From Dolichospermum sp. DET69 (lineage in GTDB: Bacteria; Cyanobacteriota; Cyanobacteriia; Cyanobacteriales; Nostocaceae), in assembly GCA_017355425.1 (NCBI GenBank), contig CP070233.1, positions 288,501 through 352,500 on the forward strand: DNA of 64,000 nt, written 5' to 3'. The position numbers and the translations under genes are program-made. Below the pieces are notes generated by a model. It was not told the origin of the DNA, searched no databases, and was given only the letters and a program-made list of their open reading frames with translations. This document shows positions 32,902-40,716 of this stretch, one piece after another; within the stretch, counting starts at the first letter, position 1; the number at the start of each line of letters is the position of its first letter.

Positions 32902-32913
32902 TCTGTATTTTCT

Positions 32914-33302
32914 CTAAGAGGATGTTTGATAGCTTGCCTAGCGTTAGCCATAAAGTTCTCTTGTCGGTATCAAAAGTTTTAGATCCCTCTAAATCTCCCT
33001 GAAAAAGGGAGACTTTGATGACCGTTCCCCCGTTTTTAAGACTACGGTGTACACACATCTCTAGACAGGATGCTAAACGTTATCCGATCCCCCTAAATCC
33101 CCCTTAAAAAGGGGGACTTTGAAGAATTTAGCCCCCCTTTTTAAGGGGGGTTGGGGGGATCTAAACGTTGTGGGGCAACTCTAGAAGACTTGTGTGTACA
33201 CCGTAGGTTTTTAAGGGGGGTTATGGGGGATGTAAAAGTCTCTAAAGTCATAGCGAAACACTTTATGGCTACGCCACGCTTCGCTATCAAATAACCTCTA
33301 AG
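32914..33302. mobile_element. Composite element: AAGAGG-TIR repeat with nested 155-bp MITE
   Basis: The outer ends CTAAGAGGATGTTTGATAG (32914) and CTATCAAATAACCTCTAAG (to 33302) are imperfectly inverted; a shorter relative is at 63107-63226. Inside, the complete 155-bp GTGTACACACA element (33047-33201) is flanked by CTACG/CGTAG. The 22-bp ATGGCT...TTCGCTA mini-element is at 33264-33286. Confidence 0.7.
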
Positions 33303-33326
33303 AAAGCATTATTTCCTGCTATACAA

Positions 33327-34700
33327 TTACACATCTGCAATTAACCTAGCCTTTCTCAAGAAAAATTGCAGTACCGTTTCCTCGCGGGAAATAATATCAA
33401 CTCTACCTTCCATTCCCAATTGAATGTTACACAGATTTTTCCCTTTACCTAAAACCAAAGTTTCTGGTTTAATAGTCACTTCATAAAAGGCATTTGGGGC
33501 TACTGCTTTCGGACTACTATGAGGATGGGAAATTCCCTCATTTGTGCTATTTTGTCGGGGAGTAATAGCGTCTGGAGAAATCGCCTCCACTTTACCATTG
33601 AGAGTGCCATAATCGGGGTAAGGACAAGCACTAACTCGCATTTGGACTGGTTGACCTATTTTGAGCTTACTTTTCGCTTCTGATGCCACTGCTGCCTTAA
33701 TAATCTGATTAACATTGTTGGGGACAATCTGCAATATTTCCTCCCCAGGACGTACAGTTTGACCAGAATTACGCAAGTTGATTTGAGAAATAATACCATC
33801 AGCCGTAGCAGTAATAGTAGTTTGATTTAGTTCAGTTTCCACTTGTTTTAGTTCGCTCGTATCACGTTCTAGCTGTTTTTGAGCTTCCATGCTTTGTTTG
33901 ATCATTCCTTGATGTTCTTTCTCTAAAGCTGCTTTATTACTTTCACCCCCAGCTTTTTCTTGAGCTATGCGCTCATTAGCAATTTTTACTTCAGCATTAC
34001 TAGGATTTAAGGCGGCTTTAGCACGTTGCTTTTTAGCGATCGCAGCAGATACCGCTTGTTCCTGCTGTTTTGTAGCTAACTGTGCTTCCTCTAATTGATT
34101 CTTAGACAATGCTTCCGCTAGACTCTCATATCGCTTTTGCTTTAACTTCGCTACATTCAAAGCTGCCTCAGTAGAATGGAGATTAGCATCAGCTTCTTCA
34201 AGTTCAGAAACAGTGGTAATTTTTTTATCATGATATTGTCGTTGGCTATCGCTTAATCCGGCTTTGGCAGCATTAATAATTCGATTAACTTTATCAGTTT
34301 CGGCTCTAATTTGACTCTCAAGAATTTGAATTTGAGTATGAATTTGTAATATTTGCAATTTACTTTGCTGAATATTAATTATCAATTGGCTTTTTTTAGT
34401 TTGCAAACGAGAGTCATCAATAATAGCAATCTGATCTCCTGTTTTCACAACCTGATTTTCTTTGACATAAATCTGCATTACTTTACCTTCCGTTGTAGCC
34501 TGGACAATTCGCAATTCTCCAGATGGACGTACAACCCCCTGTCCTTGAATTGTCACCTTATATTTAGCGACTGCGGCCACAGGAATAGCTAGTCCGAGAA
34601 CGCAGAGAATAAACATACCGCCAAAGGTAGTCCAACGAGCAATTGGAGGCAGGAATTCATCTGTTTGAATAGGGGGTAAAAAGTCGTTGTTGGTAGTCAT
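33327..34700 (-). CDS. HlyD-family membrane-fusion adaptor
   Basis: 457 residues. A cytoplasmic N-terminus and one membrane helix (TTFGGMFILCVLGLAIPVAA) lead to a biotinyl-lipoyl hairpin (VVRPSGELRIVQATTEGKVM; ADGIISQINLRNSGQTVRPG) split by a long coiled coil (~95-290), then a beta-barrel domain. This is the periplasmic adaptor of type-I secretion. It is 334 bp downstream of the C39-peptidase ABC exporter on the same strand; that gap is filled by a 244-bp MITE. It should link the exporter to an outer-membrane TolC-type pore, which is not in the window. Confidence 0.93.
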   Translation of the reverse strand: MTTNNDFLPPIQTDEFLPPIARWTTFGGMFILCVLGLAIPVAAVAKYKVTIQGQGVVRPSGELRIVQATTEGKVMQIYVKENQVVKTGDQIAIIDDSRLQTKKSQLIINIQQSKLQILQIHTQIQILESQIRAETDKVNRIINAAKAGLSDSQRQYHDKKITTVSELEEADANLHSTEAALNVAKLKQKRYESLAEALSKNQLEEAQLATKQQEQAVSAAIAKKQRAKAALNPSNAEVKIANERIAQEKAGGESNKAALEKEHQGMIKQSMEAQKQLERDTSELKQVETELNQTTITATADGIISQINLRNSGQTVRPGEEILQIVPNNVNQIIKAAVASEAKSKLKIGQPVQMRVSACPYPDYGTLNGKVEAISPDAITPRQNSTNEGISHPHSSPKAVAPNAFYEVTIKPETLVLGKGKNLCNIQLGMEGRVDIISREETVLQFFLRKARLIADV

Positions 34701-34784
34701 GGTTAATAGAAAGTGACGGGATAGAAATTTACAAGATATAAATTTACATAATATAAAATCAGAAAATAACAGTTAATAATTACC

Positions 34785-35028
34785 GTAGGGGTTTAGCACT
34801 GCTCATTTGTGTCAACTTAGGCTACAGATAGCTTATTTGTTTGGCTTCCACACCCGCCAGGGAATAAATTCCCTGTCTAATAGCTCAAGTCCGTTAAAAC
34901 GGACTAATAAATTTTCCTAGTATTCAGTCATCTTTAGATGACTTTTGCTATGAGACTGGGAATTCATTCCCAGACGGGTTAAAGGTTTTACGTTAAGTTG
35001 ACAACAATGAGCATTACTAAACCCCTAC
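34785..35028. mobile_element. 244-bp MITE between exporter and adaptor genes
   Basis: GTAGGGGTTTAGCACTGCTC is inverted by GAGCATTACTAAACCCCTAC, with GTCAACTTA/TAAGTTGAC continuing inward. The interior holds the hairpins GGGAATAAATTCCC, GTCCGTTTTAACGGAC-like and GGGAATTCATTCCC. It interrupts the exporter-adaptor operon but carries no gene. Confidence 0.85.
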
Positions 35029-35034
35029 AAATCC

Positions 35035-37176
35035 TTAATCTAAAAAGTCCAAATGTTCGCCAGGAATTTTAGATAAATCTGCTGGTGTCCCCTGGACTTT
35101 TAAGCGTCCTTGTTCTAGAAATACAATCCAATCTGCACACTGGATTACCTTGGGACGGTGACTAATTAAAATAGTGGTTTTACCCTGACGATATTCTAAA
35201 AGCCTCTTGAGTATTTGTGCTTCACTCACTGGGTCAAGTGCGCCCGTAGACTCATCTAAAATCAACAAAGGGGGGTTAGTAACGATGGCTCTAGCTATGG
35301 CTAATCGCTGCTTTTGTCCTCCCGAAAGATTAGCTCCAAATTCTCCTAAAACCGTTTGATATTTATCAGGTAATTCGCTAATAAAATCATCTGTCCCAGT
35401 AATTTGACAAGCTTTGACAATTTCCTCAAAACTGATGTGAGGATAGCTAAAATGGAAATTGTCAATAATAGAGCGACTCCAAAAATGTGGTTCTTGGGGA
35501 ATTAAAATTACTTGTTGTCTGAGACATTCCAAAGATATATCCTGTTGATTGTAAAGTCCATAACGAATATTTCCTGACTGCGATTGATATAAACCAGTCA
35601 TTAATTTTGATAGGGTACTTTTACCACAACCAGATTTACCAATTAAAGCAATGACCTGACCACCAGGAATAGTTACAGAAAAATCTTGCAATAAATCAAC
35701 TCTACCTGTGTGGTGAAAATTAATTTCTGTGCAAGTAATCTCTGCATTGGCAGGAATTTCTACCCACTGTTTTTTTAGATCATTTTCATCTTCTGGAGTC
35801 GCATCAATAACTTCTGTCAGCCGTTGAATAACTATTTGCGAAGTGATAAATTCATCTACTAAACCAATGACAGAACTTAAAAAGCCGAGAAGATTACCAC
35901 TCATCCCGTTATAAGCCATCAATTGTCCAATTGTTAAAGTTCGATTAATTACTAAATAGCTACCAATCCAGAGAATACCAATATTAATAAATGTAGAAAG
36001 AATATTTGTAACTGTGCTGCTATAAAGTCCTAGCTGCATAGTAGTCCAGGACAAGTTAGCCAAACGACCAAAATTTCCTTGATATTCTTCCCAGGCTTGG
36101 GGTGTAGCTTGGGTAGTTTTTAAGACTTGTACTCCTCGAAATGTTTCGACCAAAAAGCCTTGGTTTTCTGTACCAGAAACAATCATATTGCGGGTTTTCT
36201 GTCGCAGTGCTGGTAAAAAAAGCAAGTTAACACCCGTAATTATGACAAATGCCAATATAGACGCTAGAGTTAACTCCCAAGTATAAAAGAGCATAAAACC
36301 CAAGGAGACTACCGCAATAAAAAATTGACTGGGTAATCCCAAAACAATTTGGGAAACTAAGTTATTGATAGCGTGAACATCTGCAATGCGGCTGACAACT
36401 TCCCCGCTACGTCGTCCTTCAAAATAGGATAGGGGTAAATGTAAGAGTTTGCGCCCATATTCTAGGATTAGTCCTAATTGTAATCTTTGACTAAAATGAC
36501 CGATGAGGTGGGATTGTACCAAACTAATGGCGCTTTTAATTAAGTTCATGGCGATAACGCCAATAGCGACGGTAGTTAATAGTTGGGTATCTCCGCGCAC
36601 TAGGACATCATCCGTAAGTAGCTGCATCATGAAGGGAGATGCCAGGGAAAGCAGACCAATAGCGATATTTAGGGAAATGGCTTGGGCTATAATAAAGCGA
36701 TAGGGGTAAATCCGTTGCAGATAACGGACAAAACCAGCAATTTTATCTGATTCCTGTTGATAAAAGCGGCTTTCATCTGGAAGCAGCAGCAACATCACCC
36801 CATTATTCCAACCTGTAATTAATTCTTGGTGAGTCAAGTAACGAATACCAACGCTGGGGTCGCCAATGACATATTTATTGCCCTTCTGCCCGTATAATAC
36901 TACCCAGTGGTAGCCTTTCCAGTGAATAATCGCAGGGAGAGGAGTTTGATCTAATTGATTGATGAGTTGAGGAGAGGCTTTAACTTGTCTAGTATGGAAT
37001 CCCAGGGCTTCTGCACCCCGTCGTAATCCTAACAAAGTAGTTCCTCTCGCTCCAGTACCAACAGCTTCGCGCACTCGATTGAGGGTAAATGTGCGTCCGT
37101 AGTGTTGGGAAATTGTGGCTAAAGCGGCTGCACCACAATCTTCTTCACTGTGTTGAAGGACTATTTTGTATTTCAT
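35035..37176 (-). CDS. C39-peptidase-containing ABC exporter (double-glycine leader type)
   Basis: 713 residues. An N-terminal C39 cysteine-protease domain has Q8 and C14 (LQHSEEDCGAAALATISQHY), H90 (HWKGYHWVVLYG) and D106 (IGDPSVG). About six membrane helices follow (~165-440), then the ATPase (Walker A GKSGCGKST, signature LSGGQKQR, Walker B LLILDESTGALD). Such exporters cut leaders after Gly-Gly and secrete the core. Four genes with SGG leaders lie immediately upstream on the same strand, so they are the obvious substrates. 127 bp separate it from the nearest peptide gene. Confidence 0.95.
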   Translation of the reverse strand: MKYKIVLQHSEEDCGAAALATISQHYGRTFTLNRVREAVGTGARGTTLLGLRRGAEALGFHTRQVKASPQLINQLDQTPLPAIIHWKGYHWVVLYGQKGNKYVIGDPSVGIRYLTHQELITGWNNGVMLLLLPDESRFYQQESDKIAGFVRYLQRIYPYRFIIAQAISLNIAIGLLSLASPFMMQLLTDDVLVRGDTQLLTTVAIGVIAMNLIKSAISLVQSHLIGHFSQRLQLGLILEYGRKLLHLPLSYFEGRRSGEVVSRIADVHAINNLVSQIVLGLPSQFFIAVVSLGFMLFYTWELTLASILAFVIITGVNLLFLPALRQKTRNMIVSGTENQGFLVETFRGVQVLKTTQATPQAWEEYQGNFGRLANLSWTTMQLGLYSSTVTNILSTFINIGILWIGSYLVINRTLTIGQLMAYNGMSGNLLGFLSSVIGLVDEFITSQIVIQRLTEVIDATPEDENDLKKQWVEIPANAEITCTEINFHHTGRVDLLQDFSVTIPGGQVIALIGKSGCGKSTLSKLMTGLYQSQSGNIRYGLYNQQDISLECLRQQVILIPQEPHFWSRSIIDNFHFSYPHISFEEIVKACQITGTDDFISELPDKYQTVLGEFGANLSGGQKQRLAIARAIVTNPPLLILDESTGALDPVSEAQILKRLLEYRQGKTTILISHRPKVIQCADWIVFLEQGRLKVQGTPADLSKIPGEHLDFLD

Positions 37177-37303
37177 TTTCTGGCGTGATTTTTGAGGAGA
37201 AAATTAGATACCCGACTTCTTTTTTCTGATAAATAAATTATGAGGCGATATAAGAAGTGGGGGATATTGGAGCAAATATTGAAGGAGGATTGACGCAGAA
37301 AAA

Positions 37304-37666
37304 CTATTTATTAAAGCCGGGGTCAAAGATTGACTGGTCTACCCTATGGAGATAGATGTCATGAATGGTTTTTTTCTCTCGAAATTCATATATACCCTTA
37401 TCGAACAAGTTATATTCTTTGGAATCAAATTCAATTTTCTCTCTTTGACCCCTAGTCATCAATTGAACTATTTCACCGGGTCTTAGTAGTGATTGTTTGC
37501 CACCTACTAGTCTGTAAGCGATGTCGTACCTTGTTTTATTTCTAATTGTACATCGTATACCACCAGAAATTATTTCCGCAGCCTGTTCGTCAAGTTCTTC
37601 CACCAAAGCCAAATTTTGTAAGATACTTTGGTTATTTTGTAGAGATTTTTTTTCTGTGATAGCCAT
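37304..37666 (-). CDS. Double-glycine leader peptide/protein 1
   Basis: 120 residues. The 36-residue leader shares NNQSILQN and EELDEQAAEIISGG with its neighbours; cleavage is predicted after G36. The 84-residue core starts IRCTIRNKTRYDIAYRLVGG and continues with LLRPGEIVQLMTRG and KGIYEFREKK, resembling core 3 (TIRNKTRYDI, G-x-x-S-x-L-x-PG, GIYEF). This is too long for a classical bacteriocin and looks like a small beta-rich secreted domain. AGGAG eight bases before ATG lies inside a hairpin. Function unknown. Confidence 0.82.
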   Translation of the reverse strand: MAITEKKSLQNNQSILQNLALVEELDEQAAEIISGGIRCTIRNKTRYDIAYRLVGGKQSLLRPGEIVQLMTRGQREKIEFDSKEYNLFDKGIYEFREKKTIHDIYLHRVDQSIFDPGFNK

Positions 37667-37675
37667 TTGATTTTC

Positions 37676-37697
37676 TCCTAAAAGTTCCTGTTTAGGA
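37676..37697 (-). promoter_or_regulatory. RBS-sequestering hairpin, peptide gene 1
   Basis: TCCTAAA and TTTAGGA form a 7-bp stem with an 8-base loop; the 3' arm on the mRNA contains the AGGA of the Shine-Dalgarno sequence. Copies precede peptide genes 3 and 4, and a mismatched copy precedes the pseudogene. Confidence 0.6.
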
Positions 37698-37817
37698 AAT
37701 ACGCTAAATATTTATGATCGCCCTAAATACTCAATAAAAAGGGTAATTGTAATTATAGATCCTTCTTTTTGAATGGCTTAGGGCGATCGCAATTATGTAG
37801 GATTAAGATTAGCCTAC

Positions 37818-38072
37818 TTAGTCGCAGTGATGTCTGTTTCTATCTCTATATCCATCTCTTCTTCTCGATCTTCTTTGAGTGCCAAAGCCTAGATTAGCCT
37901 TGTTAGTATTTTCTACTATTGGATCGTCTTCACCGTCAAAAACAGATATTTCTTTATTGGATTGACCACCAGAAATTATTTCCGCAGCTTGTTCGTCAAT
38001 TTCTTGAACCAAAGCAATATTTTGCAATATGCTTTGATTGTTTAACAGAGTTTTTTCGATAGTAATAGCCAT
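37818..38072 (-). CDS. Double-glycine leader peptide 2
   Basis: 84 residues. The leader (NNQSILQN, VQEIDEQAAEIISGG) is nearly identical to the others. The 48-residue core is different: acidic first (EISVFDGEDDPIVENTN), then Gly and basic-rich (FGTQRRSRRRDGYRDRNRHH), with a single Cys two residues from the end. This is the one core that resembles a small bacteriocin-like cationic peptide. The upstream region (CAGGAGCAACTCAAATGG) has a good ribosome-binding site but lacks the shared hairpin. Confidence 0.8.
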   Translation of the reverse strand: MAITIEKTLLNNQSILQNIALVQEIDEQAAEIISGGQSNKEISVFDGEDDPIVENTNKANLGFGTQRRSRRRDGYRDRNRHHCD

Positions 38073-38131
38073 TTGAGTTGCTCCTGAAATTTAATGCAAT
38101 TGATTTACATCACCTGAAAAATCAGATGAGC

Positions 38132-38503
38132 TTACCTACGTACCCAATAGAGGTCGAGATCATATTGGTAAGGGGTTGTTCGATCATCTTGAAATTCATA
38201 TATCCCCCCATTGGATAAGTCATATTCTTTCTTTTGCTCACCGGGTCTAAGAGCATCGGAATCAAATCTAATGATACCTCCTCGACCAGTACGCCATTTA
38301 ACTGCGTCACCAGGGTGCAGTGTTGACCGTTTGCCATCTAGTATGTAAGTAATGTCATACCTTGTTTTATTTCTAATGGTAAATCTCTCAGTTTGACCAC
38401 CAGAAATTATTTCCGCAGCTTGTTCATCAAGTTCTTCCACCAAACCAAAATTTTGCAAAATGCTTTGGTTGTTTTGCAGGGCTTTTTCTGCTGTCATCGC
38501 CAT
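38132..38503 (-). CDS. Double-glycine leader peptide/protein 3
   Basis: 123 residues from the ATG at 38503; a longer open frame upstream lacks the family's leader start. Leader of 36 residues ends VEELDEQAAEIISGG. The 87-residue core (FTIRNKTRYDITYILDGKRS, LHPGDAVKWRTG, GGIYEFQDD) is a homolog of core 1 and has the N-T-x-Y-x-I-x-Y-x-L-D-G pattern I associate with small beta-sandwich domains in cyanobacterial proteins. The gene and ~240 bp upstream are duplicated, in decayed form, at 40189-40580. Confidence 0.82.
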   Translation of the reverse strand: MAMTAEKALQNNQSILQNFGLVEELDEQAAEIISGGQTERFTIRNKTRYDITYILDGKRSTLHPGDAVKWRTGRGGIIRFDSDALRPGEQKKEYDLSNGGIYEFQDDRTTPYQYDLDLYWVRR

Positions 38504-38512
38504 TTTATTTTC

Positions 38513-38534
38513 TCCTAAAAGTTGATATTTAGGA
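38513..38534 (-). promoter_or_regulatory. RBS-sequestering hairpin, peptide gene 3
   Basis: A TCCTAAA/TTTAGGA stem with 8-base loop, the same position relative to AGGAG and ATG as in genes 1 and 4; the loop sequence differs (TATCAACT on the mRNA). Confidence 0.6.
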
Positions 38535-38574
38535 AATACGCCCAATATTACAACCTTAATGTCATAGAAAACTA

Positions 38575-38745
38575 CCAGCCCCCACACAGTAGTCGTTCTT
38601 GCAGAGTGGACACAAAGATAAAAAGCAAAGGTTTTATTTTGAGGGGATATTATTCAATCCTCTATTTTTAGTATATGAGAAAAAGAAGATTTTTCAAGAT
38701 GAATTAGACAATTTTTATTTTTTCTTTTGTTTTTCGCAAAATATG
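38575..38745. repeat. Duplicated upstream region, copy A
   Basis: From AGTAGTCGTTCTTGCAGAGT through TGGACACAAAGATAAAAAGC to the TTTTTCTTTTGTTTTTCGC run it matches 40425-40580 closely. It lies upstream of peptide gene 3 and probably holds its promoter. The rest of the 38504-38862 gap holds no gene. Confidence 0.75.
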
Positions 38746-38862
38746 AAAAACTTCTCTATAGACATCTCCCCTAGTATTATTGTAAGGGAGAGAAGAGGAG
38801 ATACTTGAAAATTTTTATTGCTGCGTTGGGTCAGGTGCTGAATGTTTAGATAACGTAAGAAA

Positions 38863-39066
38863 TCAGATTAGCTTACGCGATAGAGCCGGATTTCCAGTAT
38901 CTACTCCATTCATTGAGTAAGTAATCGGCTGATTTGTTGTATTTTTAATCGTAACGTAGCCGCCAGAAATTATTTCCGCAGCTTGTGCATCAATTTCTTC
39001 ACCCAAAGCAAAATTTTGCAAGATGCTTTGATTGTTTAACTGGGCTGTTTCCACTGTCATAGCCAT
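38863..39066 (-). CDS. Double-glycine leader peptide 4 (short core)
   Basis: 67 residues: leader with NNQSILQN and GEEIDAQAAEIISGG, then a 31-residue core YVTIKNTTNQPITYSMNGVD followed by TGNPALSRKLI. The core aligns with the first third of cores 1 and 3 (TIRN-T-x-x-x-I-x-Y-x-x-x-G) and then stops, so it is a shortened version or a 3'-truncated gene. Leader, ribosome-binding site and hairpin are intact. Confidence 0.72.
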   Translation of the reverse strand: MAMTVETAQLNNQSILQNFALGEEIDAQAAEIISGGYVTIKNTTNQPITYSMNGVDTGNPALSRKLI

Positions 39067-39075
39067 GTAATTTTC

Positions 39076-39097
39076 TCCTAAAAGTTGGTGTTTAGGA
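39076..39097 (-). promoter_or_regulatory. RBS-sequestering hairpin, peptide gene 4
   Basis: A TCCTAAA/TTTAGGA stem with 8-base loop, including the AGGA ribosome-binding site; ATG follows eight bases after AGGAG. Confidence 0.6.
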
Positions 39098-39168
39098 AGT
39101 ACGCTAAAGATTTCTCAACGCCTACAAATTAACTGCTGCTGATAGAATAACGTTAATAATTGATGTTT

Positions 39169-39348
39169 TCACTCCTCAATCATACGCACATAAATAGCCC
39201 GTGCTATTTCCCGATCTATAGTCAGAGATAAATTACTACATTTAATTACAAACGTAGGAAATTGCTGTTCTACAGTAATAGTATTACCTGTTTTTATTCC
39301 CATTAATATGAGCTTTTTTCTAATTGTCTCATCTTGACTTTGACAAAT
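39169..39348 (-). pseudogene. feoA-like C-terminal remnant
   Basis: The frame reads ICQSQDETIRKKLILMGIKT, GNTITVEQQFPTFVIKCSNL, SLTIDREIARAIYVRMIEE, stop at 39169-39171. This is the SH3-like C-terminal part of FeoA (LxxMGIxxGxxI, IDREIARxIYVR). The N-terminal third is missing: upstream the frame runs antisense-like through the PTETK repeats of the neighbouring gene. An internal ATG (39303) could give 44 residues. FeoA normally aids the Fe(II) transporter FeoB, which is not here. Confidence 0.55.
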
Positions 39349-40019
39349 GGTTTTGTCTCAGTAGGCTCTGGTGGAAGCTTTGTCTCAGTAGGCTCTGGTG
39401 GAAGTTTTGTCTCAGTAGGCTCTTCATTTGGAAGCTTTGTTTCAGTAGGCTCTGGTGGAAGCTTTGTCTCAGTAGGCTCTGGTGGAAGTTTTGTCTCAGT
39501 AGGCTCTACATTCGGAAGCTTTGTCTCAGTAGGCTCTACATTCGTATCATTTATTTTACGACGCACTTCCTGGCGATCGCTCTCGAAAGTAATAGCCTGT
39601 TCAACGACAAACCAGTTACCATGATCCACAACTTGCGGATATAGCATCACCGCTGCTTCTACCTCACGATCCCCAAATTTCATCTCCTTAACAATCTGAC
39701 TGGCCTGAACAGATGTGAAGTAGTTTTGAGGAACTATCTGAATTAGGAATTGAAGCTCATTAGGCCAGCTACGACGAAGATCATCCATTAGTTGGCTAAA
39801 ATCACTATCACTTATAGGGCAAGAATGGGACCGATTTCCCCAGATTATAAACTTATTAAATAGAATACTTAGTCCTTGACCATTGGGGCTAATATTCACA
39901 CGAGAAGACTCACCTGTACAACTGTTATCACTAATTTCAACTTTATCATTAGCCAAGGTAGGGCTAATAGAAACTACCATTAATGTAGCTGTAGCCAGAA
40001 ATACTTTTGCAAAATTCAT
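39303..40019 (-). CDS. Secreted protein with PTETK tandem repeats
   Basis: I start at 40019 (MNFAKVFLATATLMVVSISP), eight bases after GGAG; a 12-codon longer frame is less likely. A signal peptide (cleavage after TLAN) precedes a ~150-residue domain with two cysteines (SCTGES, HSCPIS) and SDFSQLMDDLRRSWPNELQF. Seven EPTETKLP units follow, spaced 9 to 11 residues, encoded by a ~27-bp DNA repeat that could vary in number. The last ~14 residues (FVKVKMRQLEKSSY) are read out of frame over the feoA remnant, so the native C-terminus may be lost. A surface or wall-spanning role is a guess. Confidence 0.7.
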   Translation of the reverse strand: MNFAKVFLATATLMVVSISPTLANDKVEISDNSCTGESSRVNISPNGQGLSILFNKFIIWGNRSHSCPISDSDFSQLMDDLRRSWPNELQFLIQIVPQNYFTSVQASQIVKEMKFGDREVEAAVMLYPQVVDHGNWFVVEQAITFESDRQEVRRKINDTNVEPTETKLPNVEPTETKLPPEPTETKLPPEPTETKLPNEEPTETKLPPEPTETKLPPEPTETKPFVKVKMRQLEKSSY

Positions 40020-40188
40020 GACTGCTCTCCTATTGTTAGATATGAGTTTTAGCAATACGGACTGACGCTAAAGATGAGGATGAAACATAAGTTTTATCCT
40101 GTATCCTTAGCCAGAAATGCTTTTGAAATTTTCATAAATGCTTTCCTGTTATTAGGTGTGAATTTTAGGGACATTTATGGCGTTATGT

Positions 40189-40344
40189 TTAAGATGAAAG
40201 ATATGACTCATCCTTCATCTTTGTGGCTGTAATGTATCTGCCAGAAATTATTTCCGCAGCTTGTTCGTCAGTTTCTTCACCAAAAGCAAAACTTGCCAAA
40301 ATGCTTTGGTTGTTTAACTAGGCTGTTTCCACTGTGATAGCCAT
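40189..40344 (-). pseudogene. Decayed double-glycine leader gene 5
   Basis: It reads MAITVETA, stop (TAG), LNNQSILASFAFGEETDEQA, AEIISGRYITATKMKDESYL. The leader is recognisable but has an in-frame stop at codon 9, SGR in place of the SGG cleavage motif, and only 16 residues after it. The upstream hairpin is retained with a mismatch (TTCTAGGA). It is a dead relative of gene 4 (shared VETA and the short core). Confidence 0.75.
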
Positions 40345-40424
40345 GTGATTTTCTCCTAAAAGTTGGTTTCTAGGAATTATGCATAATATTTATAACCTTA
40401 ATGTCATAGAAGACTAGTAGATTC

Positions 40425-40580
40425 CACATAGTAGTCATTCTTGCAGAGTGGACACAAAGATAAAAAGCAAAGATTTTGTTCTGAGAGGATATTATTCACT
40501 CCTCTATTCTCACTATATGAGGAAAAGAAGATTTTTCAAGATGAATTATGCAAATTTTATTTTTTCTTTTGTTTTTCGCT
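40425..40580. repeat. Duplicated upstream region, copy B
   Basis: A close copy of 38575-38745, here upstream of the decayed leader gene. The remainder of the gap to 40716 holds no recognised feature. Confidence 0.7.
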
Positions 40581-40716
40581 TTATTGTGATAAATCCTGGA
40601 TTGTTCTATCGTTATTAGCTCATTTCCGATGGAAAAACTGTTTTAAAAAATACCGTTTTTGATATTCTCCTTGAGTTTTAATCTAAAATATCCGGTATAA
40701 ATATAATCTTTCCTAT

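Follow-up and report, generated by a model that had tools for sequence, protein, structure and literature searches.

Organization of the locus

The analysed stretch of DNA (henceforth the window; 64,000 nucleotides of the Dolichospermum sp. DET69 contig CP070233.1) carries a module that combines a C39 peptidase-ABC exporter and a HlyD-type adaptor with a series of small precursor proteins sharing a double-glycine (GG) leader. The features are listed below by their positions in the window.

32911..40706, strand not applicable: island of 7.8 kb carrying the whole module (blastn against three congeners)
33327..34700, minus strand: HlyD-type periplasmic adaptor, 457 aa (TIGR01843, E 7e-52, below the curated cut-off; Pfam HlyD_3, E 3e-17)
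35035..37176, minus strand: short-type C39 peptidase-ABC exporter, 713 aa (Pfam Peptidase_C39, E 1e-34; ABC_membrane; ABC_tran)
37304..37666, minus strand: pre1, 120 aa, a 36-aa leader and an 84-aa core, one loop shortened and the C-terminus extended (ORF, predicted fold)
37818..38072, minus strand: pre2, 84 aa, a 36-aa leader and a 48-aa core (ORF, relatives elsewhere)
38132..38503, minus strand: pre3, 123 aa from the ATG, leader and an 87-aa beta-domain core (ORF, AlphaFold2)
38863..39066, minus strand: pre4, 67 aa, leader and a truncated core of 31 aa (full-length relatives, homology break in the core)
39303..40019, minus strand: DUF4476 protein with ETKLP repeats, within the island (PF14771, E 1e-20)
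~40226..40344, minus strand: dead precursor copy with an internal TAG, only the leader and a few core codons recognizable

The exporter begins with the C39 domain (residues 2–134), followed by the TM and NBD regions, and carries C14, H90 and D106, residues with catalytic roles in this domain, as well as the Walker A, LSGGQ and Walker B motifs. The frame of pre3 is open upstream as far as a GTG at 38587, and the gene start was set at the ATG. The core of pre2, acidic in its first part and then Arg/Asn-rich, is distinct from the beta domain, and pre2-type relatives occur at four other loci (L042, L044, L057 and L062). The genome of the strain contains 8 matches to the C39 domain, yet the precursors are confined to the module locus; PF02321 (TolC type) has four matches above its cut-off in this genome, two of them within one protein. 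Comparison of the window with congeners by blastn revealed that the sequences flanking the module are nearly contiguous in three of them, only 115 bp (L155, genome G027), 309 bp (L156, G165) and ~236 bp (L157, G137) apart; the module is therefore an island, missing from the same site in all three congeners checked.

One leader, three intact precursors

The sequence-only reading had proposed four intact genes and one dead copy with a near-identical leader. The common 36-residue leader and the dead copy stand, and the wording is slightly strong, since pairwise comparison over six precursor pairs gives 25 to 30 identical residues of 36. At the nucleotide level, a unit of 163 nt comprising the leader and its 5' region is present five times, with 71–87% identity to the reference copy. 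A search of the strain's own genome with pre1 returned five matches, all of which map to the module locus; because the four matches other than pre1 itself (E 1e-76) reach E-values from 1e-26 to 2e-5, the repetition of the leader is far above chance.

The number of intact genes has to be corrected. The 31-residue core of pre4 had been taken for a shortened version of the domain, whereas its relatives at L042, L044 and L057 carry full-length cores; homology of the window's copy to them ends 19–21 residues into the core, and a stretch of 35 nt beyond the break corresponds to the 3' end of another of the precursor genes. Both observations fit a deletion across tandem copies, and pre4 is what remains of a full-length gene and no natural short form. 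With pre4 truncated and one copy dead, three precursor genes (pre1, pre2 and pre3) are therefore intact.

A new core domain, predicted to be all-beta

The beta cores of 84–87 residues belong to one domain family. From the cores collected, 8 were skipped (short, off-type, mis-cut or duplicate) and 36 kept; a similarity filter reduced these to 29 (one pre2-type row, from L062, was excluded by hand), and the resulting alignment of 29 sequences has four invariant columns. None of the window's precursors matched a Pfam or NCBIfam family above its cut-off, or PHROGs at E <= 0.001. At the same threshold the 29 aligned cores matched no Pfam family either (best E 0.0075), and a profile search of the PDB with the cores gave no accepted match (best E 0.011, to a chain named Scone-R). 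The core of pre3, which the sequence-only reading had proposed to model, was predicted by AlphaFold2 with pLDDT 87.0 and pTM 0.79 as an all-beta structure of 8 strands with no helix. The core of pre1 likewise received eight strands (pLDDT 82.5, pTM 0.71), with pLDDT below 50 for the last 8 residues. The earlier description of two beta-rich cores of about 85 residues thus agrees with the models, and the core is confidently predicted to be a compact, all-beta domain, an eight-strand beta-sandwich, previously unnamed. A search of the literature returned no report of this domain or of the cargo repertoire described below.

Linkage to the exporter and cargo of related exporters

Relatives were sought with the whole pre3 protein as the query. 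Of 191 other genomes sampled within the family (Nostocaceae), 22 contain pre3-type relatives; the 15 congeners sampled contain none. A C39 exporter adjoins the cargo in 27 of the 28 loci (window included). Leader relatives without a C39 exporter had been named as evidence to the contrary; among the relatives of whole pre3 the sole such locus is L065, where the gene lies at the contig edge. HlyD lies next to the exporter on the same strand at 25 of the 28 loci with this cargo type, again counting the window. The 26 other exporters compared with that of the window are 79–91% identical to it, except for one at 64%.

The core domain is found also outside such loci, at the C-terminus of an S-layer homology (SLH) domain protein with a signal-peptide-like start (E 4e-10; L072, one genome from another family of the class), and it is weakly matched in at least two other proteins with signal-peptide-like starts; the counts from these genome searches are lower bounds, since the number of candidates scored per genome was capped. 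Other domains behind GG leaders, e.g. beta/gamma-crystallin and SH3, accompany related exporters, which were sampled by similarity. The seeds of the cargo classes were picked by eye at these same loci, and Pfam was consulted for the crystallin/I36 and SH3 classes only, with 44 distinct proteins hand-picked from 110, of which 7 matched peptidase inhibitor family I36. The I36 inhibitors share the crystallin fold. Further classes, called C2-like and PPC-like, are named from resemblance, without a Pfam match. The loose pattern of the leader scan missed true precursors (e.g. at L053 and L062), which were recovered by the domain models, and admitted a few ORFs unlikely to be precursors.

Immunity, modification and core size

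No immunity or modification gene was recognized beside the module, no lanthionine synthetase (LanM) was found among the ten proteins scanned between 30.8 and 41.2 kb, and apart from precursors, exporter and HlyD no ORF of at least 50 aa is common to most of the 27 loci, a search that shorter or locus-specific immunity genes could escape. The earlier statement that no such gene is visible agrees with these results, within their scope. The double-glycine leader and the C39 exporter of the class II bacteriocin/microcin type are both present, and the four window precursors show no match to NHLP or Nif11-type leaders in NCBIfam at E <= 10, provided that the release includes those models. The cores had been called large for class II bacteriocins, which is true with respect to those of Gram-positive bacteria, whose cores are smaller than 84–87 residues. 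Measured against the Gram-negative microcin V, with its 88 residues (PMC10231218), they are of normal length.

Possible function

These results suggest that the C39 route ships small folded-domain proteins to the outside, beyond short antibiotic peptides. The C39 domain would dock the leaders of pre1, pre2 and pre3 and cut after Gly-Gly; the ABC exporter, together with HlyD and a TolC-type outer-membrane channel encoded elsewhere, would pass the core out unfolded; and the core of 84–87 residues is predicted to fold outside into the eight-strand beta domain. The cores would vary between copies and strains because the cargo appears to be duplicated, lost and exchanged behind a constant leader. 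Export of the cores as small beta-domain proteins is very probable. An exported core would most likely act at the cell surface, in the sheath or in the biofilm matrix, either as a binding or as a building protein, and such a role, given export, is mildly favoured. For the module as a whole, a type I, one-step secretion system for small proteins that act at the cell surface or in the matrix, we consider the chances evenly balanced. The earlier idea of a secreted-protein system on a bacteriocin-style route gains from the 27/28 linkage, the beta cores, the lack of an immunity or modification gene common to the loci, the domain on the SLH protein and the EbfG/PteB precedent (see below); secretion itself, and the surface display or kin interaction that it also named, would be putative. 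Also in favour of the module as a small-protein secretion system are the restriction of the precursors to this locus, the TolC-type matches in the genome, the single domain family of the cores with its confident models, core dN/dS values below 1, the other GG-leader domains beside related exporters, and the microcin V system, which secretes diverse small proteins with length as the main constraint (PMC10231218).

Could the cores instead be microcin-like antibacterial proteins directed against related cyanobacteria or competitors, their divergence reflecting an arms race? The leader, the C39 exporter and a core length near the 88 residues of microcin V would fit, as would paralogues in tandem whose leader is constant and whose cores diverge, the patchy spread among family genomes and congeners, the island, and the Gly-rich, bacteriocin-like cores at L080 and L082; a 2011 survey labels the precursors of this cluster type bacteriocin precursors (PMC3140520). 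Against this, no immunity-type ORF is common to the 27 loci, and the gaps between pre1 and pre2 and between pre2 and pre3 measure merely 151 and 59 bp. The core dN/dS (0.10–0.81, from few substitutions) is below 1 in all 10 beta-domain pairs that could be computed, 8 of them of the window's type, though two pairs reach 0.68 and 0.81. The same domain, moreover, sits on an S-layer homology protein. We regard an antibacterial role as unlikely, yet as the strongest competitor of the surface or matrix role.

That the module is in decay in this genome, an acquired island of little use at present, is considerably less probable: two of the five precursor copies are broken, pre1 has lost a loop and the sampled congeners have no pre3 relative, but the frames of the exporter, HlyD, pre1, pre2 and pre3 are open, the exporter motifs are kept, and a fold is still predicted for both pre1 and pre3. 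Least probable are secreted inhibitors or shields, e.g. against proteases of lytic bacteria, grazers or viruses. Related exporters carry I36 matches and the microcin V system can export a protease inhibitor (PMC10231218), but the window's own domain matches no inhibitor family.

If the surface or matrix role is extended beyond this cargo, the exporter clade of heterocyst-forming cyanobacteria could, as a tentative generalization, be a general, cargo-swapping route for small proteins of one beta domain each (the new domain, beta/gamma-crystallins, SH3, C2-like and jelly-roll-like domains) which build an extracellular surface or matrix specific to the strain, and most of the adjacent 'bacteriocin precursors' might not be bacteriocins. 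Many cyanobacterial 'bacteriocin' clusters have C39 exporters and few have a known product; one exporter clade with recognizable folded domains would replace such peptides by protein families whose folds and ligands can be tested. Folded-domain cargo would offer a criterion to distinguish toxins from proteins of the matrix or with a binding role, and non-toxin cargo of this kind would account for the absence of a recognized immunity gene. The module would also show, as a case from nature, how photosynthetic bacteria can use a leader to export small globular proteins.

Comparison with known systems

The microcin V precursor bears a GG leader, and this system has a single antibacterial cargo with an immunity gene, whereas the module has several cargoes and no recognized immunity gene. 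As described for the microcin V (colicin V) CvaAB-TolC system, the module combines a C39-ABC exporter with an adaptor and cargo near 88 residues (PMC10231218). The L072 protein shares with the module the core domain on an apparently exported protein, which there has a signal-peptide-like start and SLH domains in place of a GG leader and a C39 exporter.

In Synechococcus elongatus PCC 7942, four GG proteins are reported to depend on the C39 exporter PteB for their efficient secretion (PMC4997328), and one of them, EbfG4, was localized to both the cell surface and the matrix (PMC4997328, PMC9981879). As in the module, several small GG-leader proteins (EbfG1–4) are encoded together and the C39 exporter has a catalytic Cys. 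Mature EbfG proteins are given as 6–7 kDa and without homologues, and EbfG1–3 form amyloid (PMC4997328, PMC9981879), unlike the beta cores of the module, of ~10 kDa and predicted to be globular.

A close description is that of the group III clusters in the survey of Wang, Fewer and Sivonen (2011), which covers 19 clusters with 74 precursors of 29–129 aa and has, like the module, a short C39-ABC exporter, HlyD and tandem GG-leader precursors (PMC3140520). The exporter of the window (713 aa, no CAP_ED-type match) is of this short type, HlyD is present, and the ten proteins between 30.8 and 41.2 kb include no second, peptidase-less ABC exporter, SurA or LanM (the survey used 20 kb on each side). 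In its account of these precursors the survey stresses very little conservation of the cores (PMC3140520), in contrast to the beta domain of the module, conserved over the 29 aligned cores and confidently modelled, and to the beta/gamma-crystallin and SH3 cargo of related exporters. The cluster type has been known since 2011 as group III; the core domain and the cargo repertoire, which none of the papers searched reports, appear to be the new part.

Organization of the module

The genome around the window comprises 6.04 Mb in two contigs, and the named relatives of the locus are Cylindrospermum, Nostoc and Calothrix, which points to a cyanobacterium of the Nostocaceae type. The module is transcribed from the minus strand in the order pre4, pre3, pre2, pre1 (precursors with 36-residue double-glycine, GG, leaders), exporter, HlyD:

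38863-39066, minus strand, precursor gene pre4
38132-38503, minus strand, precursor gene pre3
37818-38072, minus strand, precursor gene pre2
37304-37666, minus strand, precursor gene pre1
35035-37176, minus strand, C39 peptidase-ABC exporter (713 aa)
33327-34700, minus strand, HlyD adaptor (457 aa)
~40226-40344, broken precursor copy with an internal TAG

The gaps measure 151 bp between pre1 and pre2 and 59 bp between pre2 and pre3. The exporter retains Cys14, His90, Asp106 and the ATPase motifs, whose functional roles are those established for the exporter family. A DUF4476 protein containing consecutive ETKLP repeats (27–30 nt unit) is encoded at 39303-40055, inside the island (32911-40706) described below.

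The leaders of pre1–pre4 share 25–30 of 36 residues over the six pairs, and the leader forms, with ~55 nt upstream, a 163-nt unit present in five copies (71–87% identical). The cores of pre1 (10.1 kDa, pI 9.5, one Cys; all values computed) and pre3 (10.4 kDa, pI 9.0, no Cys) are paralogues (52% identity across 73 aligned residues), and the pre2 core (5.7 kDa, pI 8.2, one Cys) has no sequence kinship to them. The pre4 core (3.4 kDa, pI 9.5) ends after 31 residues; the match to its relatives in loci L042, L044 and L057, which have full-length cores of 85–86 residues, breaks off 19–21 residues into the core, and is followed by a 35-nt stretch matching the 3' terminus of a different precursor gene. 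This pattern suggests that pre4 arose through a deletion between tandem copies.

One copy of an apparently non-coding 190-nt repeat lies upstream of pre3 (38548-38737) and another, 89% identical, upstream of the dead copy (40390-40579); the repeat stretches the duplication unit past the genes. A 5' hairpin, TTTCCTAAA - 8 nt - TTTAGGAGAAA, which contains the ribosome-binding sequence, directly precedes the ATG of pre4 (39066) and, by reading the sequence, those of pre1 and pre3; it recurs in L037, L041, L042, L044, L050, L057, L059 and L060. It was found in 11/13 listed long-leader genes other than the pre2 type and in 0/4 of the pre2 type, counts that provide no independent evidence, the hairpin-bearing copies being closely related. 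The hairpin may throttle translation.

Spread and linkage to the exporter

Relatives of pre3 were detected in 23 of the 192 family genomes sampled (own included), spanning 12 of 56 genera, and the same search found none in the 15 other genomes of the genus. Comparison of 28 loci (the window, L037 and L041–L066, i.e. every place in the pre3-positive genomes plus one public-collection locus) revealed a full-length C39 exporter in the same stretch at 27 (window included), two of which, L063 and L064, have identical exporters and come from one assembly with 38% contamination. In the sole exception, L065, the gene lies 1.1 kb from the contig end, on the side expected to hold the exporter. The other 26 exporters are 79–91% identical to that of the window, save L058 (64%). 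HlyD is on the same strand at 25/28 loci; L058 has it in the opposite orientation, and in L066 it falls past the contig end. In the window's genome the precursors occur at the module locus only, against eight C39 matches genome-wide; elsewhere in it four PF02321 (TolC-type) matches exceed the cut-off, two of them in one protein.

The flanking genes have best matches 85–99% identical in the 15 congeners, in four of which (G027, G165, G137 and G099) the island site was read. In G027 the gene at window position 40707 and the gene ending at 32910 are joined with 115 bp between them; the same junction measures 309 bp in G165 and ~236 bp in G137, where it holds a short repeat of the flank. These junctions indicate that 32911-40706, the whole module, was either gained in the window genome or lost in the three congeners. 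We favour gain, because exporters 91% identical exist in other genera and the 15 congeners yielded no cargo relative. At the same site G099 encodes a 643-aa protein and a 142-aa ORF, PIN-like by eye, which suggests that the intergenic site may be an insertion hotspot.

Cargo of related exporters

With up to five candidates scored per genome, an exporter match at E ≤ 1e-200 is present in at least 178 of the 192 family genomes. From the listed places we took 60 further loci (54 at 73–86% identity, 6 at 64–66%), a non-random sample that omits the loci compared above for the window-type cargo and some others. A loose leader pattern identified 116 GG-leader ORFs over 87 exporter-bearing loci, 110 of them distinct with cores of ≥25 residues; core length has a median of 86 residues (repeat copies counted) and a maximum of 113. 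Of the 127 ORFs classified with domain models that had been seeded by eye, 50 belong to a crystallin type, 38 to the window's type (the predicted eight-strand all-beta core of pre1 and pre3), 26 to a C2-like and 9 to a PPC-like type (named by resemblance, without a Pfam match), and 4 to SH3; GG adjoins the domain start in 123 of the 127. At least one modelled domain occurs in 47/54 closer loci versus 1/6 farther ones. Among 44 distinct, hand-picked proteins, all without the window's domain, Pfam (E ≤ 0.01, classes may overlap) recognized beta/gamma-crystallin PF00030 in 12, peptidase inhibitor I36 in 7, bacterial SH3 in 3, Crystall_3 in 3 and a glycine zipper in 1, confirming fewer crystallin-type proteins than our own iterated model.

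Each locus was given a single cargo label, although several contain more than one class; on a quick tree of the 87 exporters this label requires 17 changes versus a shuffled mean of 45.4, which argues that cargo tracks the exporter, yet was switched repeatedly. Several cores count against a purely folded cargo: the Gly-rich, bacteriocin-like ones on the same NNQS-type leader in L080 and L082, a 35-residue His-rich one on that leader (L050:9644-9859), possibly a metal-binding exported peptide, the pre2-type cores, disordered-looking by eye, and 19 leader-bearing cores that fit no domain model.

L046 has five GG genes before the exporter (window-type, C2-like, window-type, C2-like, C2-like), as if some cargoes left in pairs, and L109 has six near-identical C2-like precursor genes in tandem, in two alternating forms. 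Neighbours among 88 related loci (L043, L048, L049, L054, L056 and L066 included) comprise, as raw counts, a sigma-70-region-4 protein at 12, DUF1822 at 16 and CHASE2-CHAT proteins at 29; none of the three is found in the window.

The core domain outside the GG system

The core profile matches at least 9 of 388 genomes of the class; of the nine listed, five belong to the same family and four to others. Those four are L072 to L075. In L072 the domain (E 4.4e-10) makes up the C-terminal part of a protein of 391 residues that also bears S-layer homology domains (SLH, E 3.9e-12) and, by eye, a signal-peptide-like start. Proteins in L074 and L075 also start signal-peptide-like and carry the domain at the C-terminus (E 1.6e-4 and 7.7e-4). 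These carriers suggest that the core domain is brought outside along two different routes, depending on the bacterium. The L073 match (E 1.1e-5) falls in a frame that is site-specific-recombinase-like by eye, and is probably due to chance.

Possible role and comparison with known systems

Clustering of ORFs ≥50 aa around the 27 exporter loci returned as nearly universal families only the precursors (27), the exporter (27) and HlyD (26). Next in frequency, at 12 and 8 loci, came reading frames that run antisense to the exporter or HlyD, and then neighbours at ≤8/27 loci. No immunity or modification gene was recognized among these shared ORFs, a clustering that shorter or locus-specific immunity genes would slip past. 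A microcin-like role of the cores is the main rival to the role that we favour, that of a surface, sheath or matrix protein.

By the biology of the exporter family, the leader would dock on the exporter and be cleaved after Gly-Gly, and the core would pass out via ABC-HlyD-TolC and fold outside the cell. In a study of the microcin V system (PMC10231218), every test cargo of 26–66 residues was secreted, whatever its composition, secretion fell at 116 residues, and its authors suppose a preferred length of 88–116; the window cores fit this range.

The cluster type is already known as group III of the 2011 survey (PMC3140520). Within the open-access texts searched we found no published report of the conserved core domain, of its SLH carrier or of beta/gamma-crystallin and SH3 cargo for this exporter clade. 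A surface, sheath or matrix location is favoured because the closest tested case for function outside the cell is PteB/EbfG of Synechococcus elongatus (PMC4997328, PMC9981879), where four GG proteins accompany a C39 exporter, efficient secretion of EbfG needs the PteB peptidase cysteine, and EbfG4 is located both at the cell surface and within the matrix.
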